33,506 bases of DNA from Paracoccaceae bacterium. GTDB taxonomy: Bacteria > Pseudomonadota > Alphaproteobacteria > Rhodobacterales > Rhodobacteraceae. Under the pieces are notes generated by a model that ran no database searches, was not told where the DNA came from, and saw nothing but the letters and a program-made list of their open reading frames with translations. Position 1 is the first letter of the stretch, and each line of letters begins with the position of its first letter. The translations under genes were made by a program, and so were the position numbers. Positions 4,718 to 33,385 of this stretch are shown in pieces. The stretch spans positions 1 through 33,506 of the forward strand of contig RFZH01000003.1 in NCBI GenBank assembly GCA_009920815.1. The letters are read 5' to 3'.

Positions 4718-6157
4718 ATGGAAATGCCTATCCCAAGCGATTTTCGGATCGCACGTAAATCGGAACTTATGTCACGTCTTCGCGCGGTTTTGCCGCCCGA
4801 ATGTGTTATTGATGATCCCATGGAGACGCGCGCATACGAATGCGATGCGCTTTCGGCGTATCGCTGCGCGCCACTTGGCGTTGTGTTGCCCTACACAACC
4901 GAACAAGTTGCGACAGCGCTAAAGATTTGCTTCGAAATGGACATACCCGTTGTTCCGCGTGGCGCGGGAACATCGTTAGCGGGTGGTTCGTTGCCGACAG
5001 CCGATAGCATCATTTTGGGCGTCGCGCGCATGAATGACGTTCTTGAAACTGATTATGCCAATCGGTTTGTTCGTGTCCAAACGGGACGCACCAATTTATC
5101 GGTGACAGGCGCTGTTGAAGCGGACGGATATTTTTATGCACCTGATCCTTCGAGTCAGCTTGCCTGCGCCATTGCAGGGAATATTGCGATGAATTCAGGG
5201 GGCGCGCATTGCTTGAAATATGGTGTAACCTCTAACAATTTGCTAGGTGTGCGCCTTGTAACAATGCAGGGTGAGATTGTTGATATCGGCGGCGCACAGC
5301 TGGATGCCGCTGGCATGGATTTATTAGGGGTCATCTGTGGGTCCGAAGGCCAGTTAGGTGTCGTAACCGAAGCCACGTTGCGCATTTTGCACAAGCCAGA
5401 AGGTGCATTACCCGTTTTGATAGGCTTTGACAGTAACGAAGTCGCCGGGGCGTGTGTCTCAGATATTATTCGTGCGGGCGTGTTGCCTGTCGCCATCGAA
5501 TTCATGGACCGTCCATGTATCCGCGCGACCGAAGAATTTGCCAAAGCGGGGTATCCCGATTGCGAAGCTCTTTTAATCATCGAAGTTGAAGGCAGCCCAT
5601 TAGAAATTGAAGAGCAATTAGAAAAAATAATGTCCATCGCTGCGGCGCATGACCCTGTTGAAGTGCGGCGGGCAAATGACTCGGATGAAGCGGCCCGTAT
5701 TTGGTTGGGCCGCAAATCCGCTTTTGGCGCAATGGGCCAAATCAATGATTACATGTGCCTTGACGGGACCATACCTGTGTCCAAACTACCCTATGTTTTG
5801 CGGCGCATCGGTGAAATGAGCCAACAGTTTGGATTGGGTGTTGGAAACGTGTTTCACGCGGGTGATGGCAATATGCATCCGTTAATCTTATACAACGCAA
5901 ACGAACCAGGTCAGTTGGAATTGTGTGAACAATTCGGCGCAGAGATCCTCAAGCTTTGTGTCGAGGTCGGTGGTTGTTTAACTGGGGAACATGGTGTTGG
6001 TATCGAAAAACGCGACTTGATGGATCATCAATTTGCGCCCGATGATCTTGAGGCTCAGATGGCGATCAAGGATGTTTTCGATCCAAAATGGCTCTTGAAT
6101 CCGGCCAAGGTTTTTCCGTTGGCTGCGTCAGAACGCCGTCGCGATCAAGGTCTGTGA
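4718..6157 (+). CDS. glcD: Glycolate oxidase subunit GlcD, FAD-linked oxidase
   Basis: 479 aa. 'PVVPRGAGTSLAGGSLP' FAD/PCMH motif and C-terminal 'GEHGVGIEKRD'. Followed directly by glcE and glcF. Confidence 0.95.
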   Translation: MEMPIPSDFRIARKSELMSRLRAVLPPECVIDDPMETRAYECDALSAYRCAPLGVVLPYTTEQVATALKICFEMDIPVVPRGAGTSLAGGSLPTADSIILGVARMNDVLETDYANRFVRVQTGRTNLSVTGAVEADGYFYAPDPSSQLACAIAGNIAMNSGGAHCLKYGVTSNNLLGVRLVTMQGEIVDIGGAQLDAAGMDLLGVICGSEGQLGVVTEATLRILHKPEGALPVLIGFDSNEVAGACVSDIIRAGVLPVAIEFMDRPCIRATEEFAKAGYPDCEALLIIEVEGSPLEIEEQLEKIMSIAAAHDPVEVRRANDSDEAARIWLGRKSAFGAMGQINDYMCLDGTIPVSKLPYVLRRIGEMSQQFGLGVGNVFHAGDGNMHPLILYNANEPGQLELCEQFGAEILKLCVEVGGCLTGEHGVGIEKRDLMDHQFAPDDLEAQMAIKDVFDPKWLLNPAKVFPLAASERRRDQGL

Positions 6158-6158
6158 G

Positions 6159-7256
6159 ATGGATTATCAACCAACGTCCGAAGCTGAATTGTCAGAGATT
6201 GTCAAAGCGACAACAAATCCGCTCGCCATTGTTGGTGGCGGTACGCGCCGTGCGCGCCCTGTCAAAGGTGATATGGTTTCAACTGCGGGGATTTCGGGTA
6301 TCGTAGATTATGAGCCAGGCGCCCTGACCATGGTTGCGCGTGCTGGAACGCCATTGTTCGAGATCGAAGCAACCTTGGCCAAAGAAAATCAGCAATTGGC
6401 GTTTGAACCATTAAGCTTGGCAGGCATTCTGGGATCGTCAGGACACAGTACAATAGGTGGCGTTTTTGCTGCAAACGCAAGCGGTTCGAGACGCATCCAA
6501 GCTGGTGCAGCGCGTGATTTTTTGTTGGGCGTTCGATTTGTTGATGGCGCTGGTAAGATTGTTAAGAATGGTGGTCGCGTGATGAAAAATGTTACCGGCT
6601 ACGACTTGGTAAAATTGCTTGCGGGCAGCTGGGGGACATTGGGAATCCTGAGTGAAGTATCGTTCAAAGTTTTGCCAATTTCTGATGTGTCAGCGACCTT
6701 GTCGATGAAAGCCGACGATCCAAAAACGGCGATCGACATTATGACCACCTGTATGAATACAGCATTTGATGTGACTGGTGCTGCTTATGATGCTGTTGCA
6801 GGATGTGTCTATATACGTATCGAGGGTTTTGAAAAATCAGTTGCCTATCGGTCAGGGGCTTTGCAGCAGATAGTATCAAAATTTGGGGCGGTCGATATAT
6901 TGGAAATGACCGCATCGCGTGCGGTATGGACGCAGATACAAAACCTATCCATGTTACAGAACCGAGACGGCGATCTATGGCGCGTGTCCGTTAAACCCAC
7001 AGATGGCGCAAATGTTGTGCATGCCATTTCACCCGATGCTTATGTTATGGACTGGTCTGGTGGTTCAATTTGGATGCGCGTGTCAAAGGGAATGGACGTG
7101 CGTGGTGCACTGGGTTCGATTGCTGGGCATGCAACCTGTTATGTCGGTGACGCAGCTATGTTTCATCCTGAACCCGAAAACGTGCGCGTGCTTACAGATG
7201 CAATCCGCAGAAAATATGATCCAAAGGCTATTTTGAACCAAGGATTGATGGGCTAA
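6159..7256 (+). CDS. glcE: Glycolate oxidase FAD-binding subunit GlcE
   Basis: 365 aa. 'IVGGGTRR', 'GRVMKNVTGYDLVKLLAGSWGTLGILSEVSFKVLP'. Sits between glcD and glcF. Confidence 0.93.
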   Translation: MDYQPTSEAELSEIVKATTNPLAIVGGGTRRARPVKGDMVSTAGISGIVDYEPGALTMVARAGTPLFEIEATLAKENQQLAFEPLSLAGILGSSGHSTIGGVFAANASGSRRIQAGAARDFLLGVRFVDGAGKIVKNGGRVMKNVTGYDLVKLLAGSWGTLGILSEVSFKVLPISDVSATLSMKADDPKTAIDIMTTCMNTAFDVTGAAYDAVAGCVYIRIEGFEKSVAYRSGALQQIVSKFGAVDILEMTASRAVWTQIQNLSMLQNRDGDLWRVSVKPTDGANVVHAISPDAYVMDWSGGSIWMRVSKGMDVRGALGSIAGHATCYVGDAAMFHPEPENVRVLTDAIRRKYDPKAILNQGLMG

Positions 7257-8578
7257 TGCAAACATTTTTCGAACCTGATCAATTGATTGATCCAGATTTC
7301 AAACGTTCTAATGAAATTTTGCGCGCCTGTGTCCATTGCGGTTTTTGTACGGCGACCTGTCCCACATATCAAGTGCTGGGCGATGAATTGGATAGCCCGC
7401 GTGGACGCATTTACTTGATCAAGGATATGTTGGAAAACAATCGTATCCCTGATGCCAAAACGGTGAAACATATTGATCGGTGTTTGTCCTGTTTGGCATG
7501 TATGACGACCTGTCCATCGGGTGTGCATTATATGCATTTGATTGACCACGCACGCGCATATGTGAACGAACATTATCAACGACCTTGGCATGATCGTGCT
7601 CTTCGATGGATCTTATCTCAGGTTATCCCTTATCCTACACGGTTTAGGGTTGCGATGCTGGCGGCTAAAATGGCGCGGCCCTTTGCGCGGCTCATACCTG
7701 ATGCGCGGTTGCGGGCCATGGTCTCAATGGCGCCAAAGCACATTCCGCCTGTAAGCCGGAATGACGATCCTCAAACGTTTCGCGCTGTTGGAAAAAAGAC
7801 AAAGCGCGTTGCATTAATGACGGGATGTGCCCAACGTGCGCTCAACACAGATATCAACGATGCGACCATCCGTGTCTTGCAACGGTTTGGTTGTGATGTT
7901 GTGATCCCCGAAGGACAGGGGTGCTGTGGCGCGTTAACGCATCACATGGGGCAGACGGAAAATTCGCATGCATCAGCAGCTGCAAATATTAAATCGTGGA
8001 TGACCGAGGTAAAGGGTGCTGGTTTGGATGCGATTGTTATTAATACCAGCGGGTGTGGCACGACGGTGAAAGACTATGGCCATATGTTTCGTGATACGCC
8101 ATTGGCGGCAGATGCGGCCATCATTTCAGGCTTGGCCAAAGATATATCCGAGGTGCTGATGGATCTTGATATTCCGCAAGTAGAACATAAAGATTTGGTT
8201 GTTGCCTATCACGCGGCCTGTTCATTGCAACATGGACAAAAAATTAAGGATCACCCCAAAACGCTATTGAAACGCACAGGCTTTCAGGTGGCGGAGCCGC
8301 GCGACCCTCATCTATGTTGTGGTTCCGCCGGTACGTATAATTTGTTGCAGCCTGAAATATCTGGTCAGTTGAAACTGCGAAAAGTTAAGACGCTTGAAGC
8401 GGTGCGTCCAGATATTATCTCTGCAGGTAATATTGGGTGCATGATGCAAATCGGATCAGGAACCGAGGTTCCTGTTGTCCATACTGTTGAACTGATTGAC
8501 TGGGCGACAGGCGGCCCAAAACCTGCTGCACTGGATCGTAAATTGACCAAAGGTCATCCTATCCCTAAATTGCGTTAA
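7256..8578 (+). CDS. glcF: Glycolate oxidase iron-sulfur subunit GlcF
   Basis: 440 aa. Two 4Fe-4S motifs 'CVHCGFCTATCPTY' and 'CLSCLACMTTCPS'; CCG-type motifs 'GCCGALTHHMG' and 'CCGSAGTYNLLQPEIS'. Confidence 0.95.
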   Translation: MQTFFEPDQLIDPDFKRSNEILRACVHCGFCTATCPTYQVLGDELDSPRGRIYLIKDMLENNRIPDAKTVKHIDRCLSCLACMTTCPSGVHYMHLIDHARAYVNEHYQRPWHDRALRWILSQVIPYPTRFRVAMLAAKMARPFARLIPDARLRAMVSMAPKHIPPVSRNDDPQTFRAVGKKTKRVALMTGCAQRALNTDINDATIRVLQRFGCDVVIPEGQGCCGALTHHMGQTENSHASAAANIKSWMTEVKGAGLDAIVINTSGCGTTVKDYGHMFRDTPLAADAAIISGLAKDISEVLMDLDIPQVEHKDLVVAYHAACSLQHGQKIKDHPKTLLKRTGFQVAEPRDPHLCCGSAGTYNLLQPEISGQLKLRKVKTLEAVRPDIISAGNIGCMMQIGSGTEVPVVHTVELIDWATGGPKPAALDRKLTKGHPIPKLR

Positions 8579-8644: not shown

Positions 8645-9430
8645 GTGAAGAGTTTATTTGTTACCCTTTGGTTGTCTCTCACGGCAACTATGTCAAATGC
8701 ACAATCGACCCAATTGCACAGTCTGGATTCTATAAATCAAGCACGTCAATGGGCGTCGGTTGGCCGGTTATCTTTTGGCCAAGGAAGCGGGTTCTGTACC
8801 GCGACGTTGATTGACTTTGACTTGGTTTTGACTGCCGCACATTGTCTATATGACGCGAAAACGGGCAAACCTTTTCCAACGAACAGTTTTGAGTTTCAGG
8901 CAGGTTGGCGCAACGGACGTGCCGAAGCCTATCGTAATATTCGCGAGGCGCGGCCTGATCCAGATTACCGCTTTGACAATACGGTCAGTATTGAACGCAT
9001 CAAAAACGATATAGCTCTTGTGCGTCTTGATCATGCCATTAAAAATCCGCTTATCCAGCCCCTATCGATTTCGACGTTGCCCGAGGCCGGACAAACGGTT
9101 GGTGTTATTTCATATGCACGCGGCCGGATGAACGCGCCATCAATTCAAGACACCTGCGTTGTCACTGCGCGACAAGAGGGTGTTTTGATAATGACCTGCG
9201 ACGTTGATTACGGCGCCTCTGGATCACCGGTATTTATCGAGGGCGAGGACGGCGTTATGATCGTGTCGGTCGTTTCTGCGATGGCAGAAATGGGCGGTAA
9301 AAAGGTGTCTCTTGGCACATCTTTGTTAGATGCGATCACTCAGATCAACGCGCGCATGTCACCAACGGATGAACTAAATGATGAATCAATGCGCCGTCGC
9401 AACACCGGTGCTAAATTTGTGCGTCCTTAG
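8645..9430 (+). CDS. Secreted trypsin-like serine protease (S1 family)
   Basis: Signal peptide 'MKSLFVTLWLSLTATMSNAQS'; catalytic motifs 'TAAHC', 'NDIALVRLD', 'GASGSPVF'. Confidence 0.85.
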   Translation: MKSLFVTLWLSLTATMSNAQSTQLHSLDSINQARQWASVGRLSFGQGSGFCTATLIDFDLVLTAAHCLYDAKTGKPFPTNSFEFQAGWRNGRAEAYRNIREARPDPDYRFDNTVSIERIKNDIALVRLDHAIKNPLIQPLSISTLPEAGQTVGVISYARGRMNAPSIQDTCVVTARQEGVLIMTCDVDYGASGSPVFIEGEDGVMIVSVVSAMAEMGGKKVSLGTSLLDAITQINARMSPTDELNDESMRRRNTGAKFVRP

Positions 9431-9431
9431 T

Positions 9432-9459
9432 GTTGAAAAAGTAAATTACAGTCCTAAAT
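9432..9459 (+). promoter_or_regulatory. Candidate sigma-32 type heat-shock promoter of the hsp20 gene
   Basis: GTTGAAA (9432-9438), 14-nt spacer, CCTAAAT (9453-9459). Partial match to CTTGAAA-N11-16-CCCATnT, located upstream of an Hsp20 ORF. Confidence 0.4.
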
Positions 9460-9470
9460 GAAATGTACGG

Positions 9471-9550
9471 ATGCCACAAAGGGTCCGTAAATTTTAACCG
9501 TCTGCGCCAAACTGGGCAGGCATTTGGTATCGCTCAAAGGAGGATGACCC
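9471..9550 (+). promoter_or_regulatory. Candidate ROSE-type RNA thermometer in the hsp20 5' UTR
   Basis: SD-masking hairpin GGTATCGCTCAAAGGAGGATGACC (9526-9549): TCGCT matches the ROSE UYGCU motif and pairs with AGGAGGA leaving one bulged G. Upstream helices: ATGCC (9471-9475)/GGCAT (9519-9523) and TGC[G]CCA-AAC-TGGGCA (9503-9518). Confidence 0.7.
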
Positions 9551-10009
9551 ATGAGACATTTTGATTTTTCACCCCTATATCGTGCCACTGTTGGTTTTGA
9601 CCAAATCGCAGAAATGATGGATCGCGTACTTGCGTCCGACACTGCTGGGCCGAGCTATCCGCCATACAATATTGAAAAAACAGCTGATGATTCTTATCGC
9701 ATCTCTATCGCGGTTGCCGGATTTGCGGATCAAGAGCTAACTGTTGAAGTCAAAGAAAATGCTTTGGTTGTCTCGGCTAAAAAAGTCGCTGACGATGAAA
9801 AGAAAACTTACCTACATCGTGGAATCGCGACCCGGGCATTTGAACGTCGGTTTCAATTGGCAGATCACGTCCGTGTAACCGGTGCAAGCCATTTTGACGG
9901 TATGCTGCATATTGACCTCGTTCGCGAAATTCCAGAGGCCTACAAGCCCCGTCGTATTGAGATCACATCAAGCGCACAAACGCGTACAATTGAAAATGCA
10001 GTCAATTAA
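9551..10009 (+). CDS. Hsp20 family small heat shock protein (IbpA-like)
   Basis: 152 aa. Starts 'MRHFDFSPLYRATVGFDQI'; alpha-crystallin domain 'PPYNIEKTADDSYRISIAVAGF'; strong SD AAGGAGG. Confidence 0.92.
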   Translation: MRHFDFSPLYRATVGFDQIAEMMDRVLASDTAGPSYPPYNIEKTADDSYRISIAVAGFADQELTVEVKENALVVSAKKVADDEKKTYLHRGIATRAFERRFQLADHVRVTGASHFDGMLHIDLVREIPEAYKPRRIEITSSAQTRTIENAVN

Positions 10010-10028
10010 ACAAACCAAATGACCAAAC

Positions 10029-10054
10029 GTGGCAGATCACTTTAGATCTGCCAC
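10029..10054. terminator. Perfect 10-bp inverted repeat between convergent genes, possible bidirectional transcription end
   Basis: GTGGCAGATC-ACTTTA-GATCTGCCAC. Overlaps the 3' end of the minus-strand gene and lies 20 nt after the hsp20 stop. No clear U-tract. Confidence 0.5.
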
Positions 10055-10768
10055 AAGTCCAACGATTGGTCCAATTGGCCAGCCAAAATCCGAGCGACCA
10101 AGGTTTGGCGCGTAAAGTCGAGAGACCTTTCCATCCAAATAAAGTGCATTCTGGGCATTTAGGCGATCACGAAAAAAGGTCGCGAAACTATGCAAATTTA
10201 TCCGATCATTTGAAATGACAAAATAGACGTTGTCCCCATCAACCGAGACGCCGTTGCGAATATTCAAAGATGTGCTGTCTTTTATAAACCGCGGATGTAA
10301 ACGTCCATTAATGACCAGCATGGGGCCAGACTGCGTCGCATAATTACAGTTTTGCGCGCTCGATAGGTAATTGTTTGTCTCGAACACCTTCACTATTTGG
10401 TCGTTGATGCATAAAACGCCATTTGGCAGCATGCCAAAATTTCCTGGACCTTCGGATGTAATGACGCGCTGCTTTTCTACACCCTCTTCAATGTAATGGC
10501 CCACAGGCGACAAATCCGGGTGATACATTCCGCCATTCATAGCAAAAAGCAATTGTTTTGCGCGTGATTTTAATGTGTTGGACAGGGTGAAAAATTGACC
10601 ATACGGCACGCCTTCTGCATTTGTGTGGAATAAACGCAGGTCTTGGCCCATGTGCGCTTGGCAGATTGTAAAACTTTTATTTTCATGAACTTCATCGCGA
10701 CATTGCGCAGCTGTTGCACTGGCTGCCAAAACAGCAACCAATGTCACAAAAAATCGGATCAAAATCAT
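10037..10768 (-). CDS. Secreted phosphodiester glycosidase family protein (DUF2233)
   Basis: 243 aa. N-terminal signal peptide; '[24 protein letters not shown]' and '[17 protein letters not shown]' typical of the family. Confidence 0.85.
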
Positions 10769-33308: not shown

Positions 33309-33385
33309 GGACCGATAGCTCAGCTGGATAGAGTACTTGACTACGAATCAAGGGGTCGGGGGTTCGAATCCTCCTCGGTCCGCCA
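33309..33385 (+). tRNA. tRNA-Arg (anticodon ACG), CCA encoded
   Basis: GGACCGA/TCGGTCC acceptor stem, TAGCTCAGCTGGATAGAGTA D-arm, CTTGACT-ACG-AATCAAG anticodon arm, GGTTCGAATC T-loop, encoded CCA. Confidence 0.97.

Follow-up and report, generated by a model that had tools for sequence, protein, structure and literature searches.

A predicted three-hairpin ROSE-type RNA thermometer in the hsp20 leader of a Paracoccaceae bacterium

The hsp20 locus

The window, i.e. the whole analysed stretch of 33,506 nucleotides, contains an intergenic region (9431–9550) that lies between a gene for a trypsin-like protease (8645–9430) and an hsp20 gene, the product of which usually finds its best match in the genomes of the family at 54–85% identity. 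This region holds, in order, a sigma-32-like promoter and three hairpins (Table 1), with the hairpins forming an element at 9466–9553 immediately 5' of the gene and its start codon (ATG at 9551). Further upstream, three adjoining genes at 4718–8578 resemble an operon for glycolate oxidase, with FAD-binding subunits and an Fe-S subunit that carries CCG domains. Just 3' of hsp20, an inverted repeat, GTGGCAGATC..GATCTGCCAC (10028–10057), is present without a T-run and possibly marks where transcription ends between two convergent genes.

Table 1. Positions of the promoter, leader and gene features in the window
Feature	Position	Strand	Basis
−35 element TTGAAA, sigma-32/RpoH-like promoter	9433–9438	+	CTTGAA conserved in relatives
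−10 element CCTAAAT, 14 nt spacer	9453–9459	+	promoter pattern in relatives
Hairpin 1, UACGGAU[G9473]CC-ACAAA-GG-GUCCGUA, bulged G	9466–9489	+	pairing in relatives; RF00435 consensus with the same bulge
Hairpin 2, GUCUGC[G9506]CCA-AAC-UGGGCAGGC	9500–9521	+	predicted fold; alignment of relatives
Hairpin 3, predicted thermosensing hairpin masking the Shine-Dalgarno	9526–9549	+	predicted fold; alignment
UCGCU, the UYGCU motif of ROSE, with bulged G9532	9530–9534	+	sequence; relatives; model alignment
Shine-Dalgarno GGAGGA, 6 nt 5' of ATG	9539–9544	+	sequence
hsp20, small heat-shock protein, 152 aa	9551–10009	+	Pfam PF00011, E 1.6e-18

Promoter and predicted transcription start

In the relatives, CTTGAA is mostly found 35–38 nt upstream of hairpin 1, and a strict promoter pattern, picked after the leaders had been viewed, is matched by 79 of 99 leaders as against 0.02% of plain mononucleotide shuffles. 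PMC3669281 quotes CTTGAA-N13-18-CNCCATAT as the sigma-32 consensus, with which the pattern of the relatives is in accord. In the window itself the promoter reads GTTGAAA..CCTAAAT, a weaker copy that falls outside the strict pattern. A sigma-70 scan of the leader found no promoter. Transcription is predicted to start at approximately 9464–9467, at the foot of hairpin 1; a start downstream of 9526 had been named in the original prediction as evidence against it, and the predicted start lies upstream of the element.

Anatomy of the three hairpins

Folding reproduces the 3'-most hairpin as it was originally proposed (GGUAUC[G]CUC-AAAG-GAGGAU..ACC), with G9532 bulged and UCGCU placed opposite AGGA (9541–9544), and with a bulge on the 3' side that is either G9546 or A9547, varying with the folding temperature. 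In an 85-row model alignment of the leaders, UYGCU is present in all rows (83 UCGCU, 2 UUGCU), the bulge position of hairpin 3 is a G in 85/85, and the stretch aligned with the Shine-Dalgarno reads GAGGAT in 75 rows, AAGGAT in 7, GAGGAA in 2 and GATGAG in 1. The motif was also searched for within 40 nt upstream of the start codon in 103 distinct orthologous leaders with the pattern [TC][TC]GCT[CT], which is wider than UYGCU and accepts CYGCU. All 103 were matched, 101 of them by UYGCU (99 UCGCU, 2 UUGCU) and two, L033 and L056, by CCGCU. These last two are first matches lying upstream and off-register, which arose because the pattern also took CYGCU; by eye both leaders (GGTTCGCTCAACGGAGGAT in L033, GGATCGCTTTACGGAGGAT in L056) carry UCGCU positioned as in the others.

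The two upstream helices of the original prediction fared differently. The ATGCC/GGCAT helix did not hold up: ATGCC (9471–9475) instead lies in the 5' arm of hairpin 1, which folds locally and the pairing of which is preserved in the relatives via compensatory changes. Since ATGCC belongs to a hairpin starting at 9466, the element starts some 5 nt upstream of the 9471 first assigned to it. In 99/103 relatives the [G]CC..GG of hairpin 1 forms together with four or more pairs of a flanking stem. The bulge of this hairpin is a G in all 85 rows of the model alignment, and its arms are 99.0% paired versus 69.7% after permutation among species, a figure biased upward because the hairpins were selected for pairing. 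The second helix, proposed as TGC[G]CCA-AAC-TGGGCA, is recovered and is actually three pairs longer (hairpin 2 in Table 1). In the relatives it commonly takes the form GCCY[G]UCC..GGARGGC, with a U-A to C-G exchange. The hairpin-2 counts were taken from the model alignment, because the hairpin-2 finder at times returned hairpin 3, and they give a G at the bulge in 83/85 rows (4 with a second letter; the other two rows are gapped); in the window's own fold the bulge sits two positions further inward than in that alignment.

Conservation and covariation

In a seed alignment built from sequence alone, though from leaders chosen for their equal hairpin-1 loops, 96.5% of the cells are paired versus 88.6% after shuffling, with 37 versus 11 double changes. 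The 85-row alignment, which was fitted to the structure and hence leans towards it, has 94.0% of its cells paired versus 80.8%, and 279 double-changed cells versus 85; sliding the 3' strand by 1–3 columns reduces the pairing to 33–59%. The conserved pairing of the three hairpins, within the two to four that are typical of ROSE, is accompanied by a covariation score reached in 0/500 shuffles, and all three are preserved in two congeners despite different sequences. Most of the covariation falls in hairpins 1 and 2. Hairpin 3 contributes little of its own: its core, constrained to lie opposite the Shine-Dalgarno, hardly varies, so that this hairpin rests more on conservation than on covariation. 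The folding energy of the leader is moderately unusual (z −2.07), and occlusion of the Shine-Dalgarno taken alone is not beyond chance, 17% of shuffled leaders hiding it equally at 30 °C. Judged by conservation and covariation in the sequences compared, the element does exceed chance; the compensatory changes for which the hsp20 5' UTRs of relatives were to be inspected are strong.

Predicted response to temperature

Nearest-neighbour models capture ROSE thermosensing poorly. In ViennaRNA calculations, the opening of the window's AGGA rises from 3% at 20 °C through 12% at 37 °C to 23% at 50 °C. Deletion of G9532 in silico takes the energy of hairpin 3 at 37 °C from −7.1 kcal/mol to −10.9 kcal/mol, rendering the hairpin 3.8 kcal/mol more stable. 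The expected opening of the Shine-Dalgarno with heat is thus seen in the calculation, but the predicted melting is shallow. Similar curves are obtained for most leaders that RF00435 finds, while L014 and L002 have no predicted opening on heating. Because of the shallow trend and these two leaders, the opening curves constitute weak evidence.

Rfam and clade-model searches

The Rfam ROSE model RF00435 matches 9467–9557 over all 94 model positions with 22.7 bits, which is half of the gathering cut-off of 45 (a detection threshold and not a structural feature), and with an E of 0.21 taken over all 4227 Rfam families; no other family among the 4227 scanned matches at the hsp20 leader. The covariance-model match foreseen in the original prediction therefore runs end to end and is sub-threshold, and the suspicion that the element may be unannotated proved right: automatic annotation misses it because the score falls below the cut-off. 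The sole above-threshold Rfam match in the window is a tRNA gene at 33309–33382. Searched against whole genomes of the relatives and of the class, RF00435 gives almost no matches, its cut-off being passed in 1/289 alphaproteobacterial genomes under strict filters, which is due to the model and the filters and not to an absence of elements.

A clade model, R1, was built from 18 other species, with the window left out of training. Its seed leaders were hand-picked for equal hairpin-1 loops and its structure was specified by the analyst; it was used instead of an earlier MAFFT alignment of full leaders, which misplaced hairpins 1 and 2 and on which RNAalifold, because of that misalignment, saw hairpin 3 alone. 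For the window R1 gives 56.0 bits, with an E of 5.5e-10 in 322 kb and of 4.3e-9 in the 2.52 Mb genome, where it finds no second copy at E up to 1. It matches 84/84 further leaders outside training. Under strict filters, by which weak matches are lost, exactly one match is found in 124/150 genomes of the family, and in the class 40/289 genomes are matched, one of them twice. In all 47 match loci that were fetched (41 from R1, 6 from RF00435) an hsp20 relative begins at the match end or a few residues from it; weak R1 and R2 matches away from hsp20 (E 0.02–1; R2 is described below) are about as many as chance would give for that number of genomes. Homology to recognised ROSE is found in both directions, since RF00435 matches the window and, of the six class leaders detected by RF00435, R1 recognises five (E 6e-9 to 2e-3); only one of the six passes the Rfam cut-off. 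Standard annotation therefore misses ROSE thermometers across a large and ecologically important family, in which the Rfam model calls almost none and the clade model finds one, at hsp20, in approximately five of six genomes.

Relation to known ROSE elements

More than 40 ROSE-type elements have been reported at small heat-shock genes of alpha- and gammaproteobacteria (PMC4166951), and ROSE-like motifs have been described on both such genes of a Roseobacter (PMC3230580), so that neither the class nor its occurrence in this clade is new. For the clade-wide anatomy, no description was found in the literature searched, a cited 2005 survey lying outside that search. The Roseobacter in question, Nautella sp. 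R11, is of the same clade and carries its elements at the same kind of gene (ibpA and hspD); they are given in one sentence without structure or covariation (PMC3230580) and are compared here by that description.

With RF00435, which represents Bradyrhizobium hspA ROSE1 and its rhizobial relatives, the leader shares the order and form of the hairpins, the [G]CC..GG bulge of hairpin 1, the bulged-G UYGCU motif preceding AGGA, the 3'-side bulge and the hsp20 gene downstream. It differs in that the RF00435 consensus has UUGCU and the Rhodobacteraceae leaders have UCGCU (83/85), which places a C-G pair where RF00435 has a U-G wobble, and in that the consensus has bulges in hairpins 1 and 3 and none in hairpin 2, which in the window has a bulged G of its own. 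ROSE_2 (RF01832) and ROSE_3 (RF02523) have sub-threshold matches in some relatives, whereas the window matches RF00435 only. The short ROSE-like thermometer of Pseudomonas ibpA (PMC3669281) has in common the sigma-32 promoter followed by a ROSE leader at a small heat-shock gene; with two hairpins and 61–62 nt it is closer to the leader of a second hsp20 gene in this genome.

Interpretation and alternative explanations

It is very probable that the hsp20 leader is a three-hairpin ROSE-type RNA thermometer, transcribed from an RpoH promoter, in which hairpin 3 masks the Shine-Dalgarno until heat. The element is real, worth annotating and within the known ROSE class. Its membership, as originally proposed, is supported by the end-to-end RF00435 match, by R1 and by the compensatory changes, and it does lie outside the rhizobial hosts, the Rhodobacteraceae being the family of Roseovarius and Ruegeria.

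In the proposed mechanism, the hsp20 mRNA would start at about 9466 from the heat-shock (RpoH) promoter, and at growth temperature hairpin 3 would pair UCGCU with the AGGA of the Shine-Dalgarno and keep ribosomes off. The bulged G9532 and the 3'-side bulge would weaken this hairpin, allowing a gradual melting on heating upon which Hsp20 is made, while hairpins 1 and 2 would probably serve as stable scaffolds for correct folding of the leader. The comparisons show the anatomy of the leader, how it is conserved and covaries, its homology to Rfam ROSE and its association with hsp20 genes; we infer the melting, the roles of the bulged G and of the scaffolds, and the dual control with RpoH by analogy with experimentally studied ROSE elements.

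A different model, in which the conserved hairpins serve mRNA stability or the binding of an sRNA or protein and the Shine-Dalgarno hairpin merely lowers basal translation, would account for the strong maintenance of hairpins 1 and 2 and for the shallow predicted melting of hairpin 3. Against it stand the conservation of UYGCU and the bulged G before AGGA in every relative, the occurrence of the element at hsp20 genes and a match spanning recognised ROSE end to end, and we consider it unlikely. Far less probable still is a hairpin that sequesters the Shine-Dalgarno by chance, with regulation purely transcriptional via RpoH: a sigma-32-like promoter is indeed present and 17% of the shuffled leaders hide the Shine-Dalgarno equally at 30 °C, but compensatory changes over more than 80 species and the single model match per genome argue against it. 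Equally improbable is a thermometer of another class (fourU, ROSE-G or the cyanobacterial hsp17 type), for while these all mask the Shine-Dalgarno by a hairpin near the start codon, no U run faces it here, ROSE is the only Rfam match, and in ROSE-G the bulged G of CUGCU lies opposite another one in the Shine-Dalgarno region (PMC12857270), as against UCGCU with an unopposed bulge in the predicted fold of the window.

The second hsp20 leader of the genome

The ROSE-type thermometer favoured for the window may have a counterpart, as the second hsp20 gene of the genome (loci L167 and L111) has a two-hairpin, ROSE-like leader (G000:C61:911-967, minus strand) with a bulged-G hairpin 1 and a GUC[G]CUU..AAGGAC hairpin in which UCGCUU faces AAGGAC, an anatomy conserved in the family. 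R1 does not match at L111, and Rfam ROSE matches none of the second-hsp20 leaders in the three loci tested. A two-hairpin model, R2, from 10 other species finds this leader with 53.2 bits (E 3.4e-8); at an E limit of 0.1 it matches 72/101 genomes of the family, with chance matches expected among the weakest.

A speculative and rather doubtful extension is that the Rhodobacteraceae elements constitute a distinct ROSE subfamily, characterised by a 5'-strand bulged G in all three hairpins, by C-G in place of the Rfam U-G wobble and by an additional ROSE of two hairpins at the other hsp20 gene, in which case both leaders could be thermometers with different set temperatures. Two differently built thermometers per genome would let hairpin number and the wobble pair be compared for their effect on switching temperature. 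As a separate observation, R2 also weakly matches the window at 9500–9553 (E 0.024), i.e. over hairpins 2 and 3, so that hairpins 1 and 2 may derive from a duplication.
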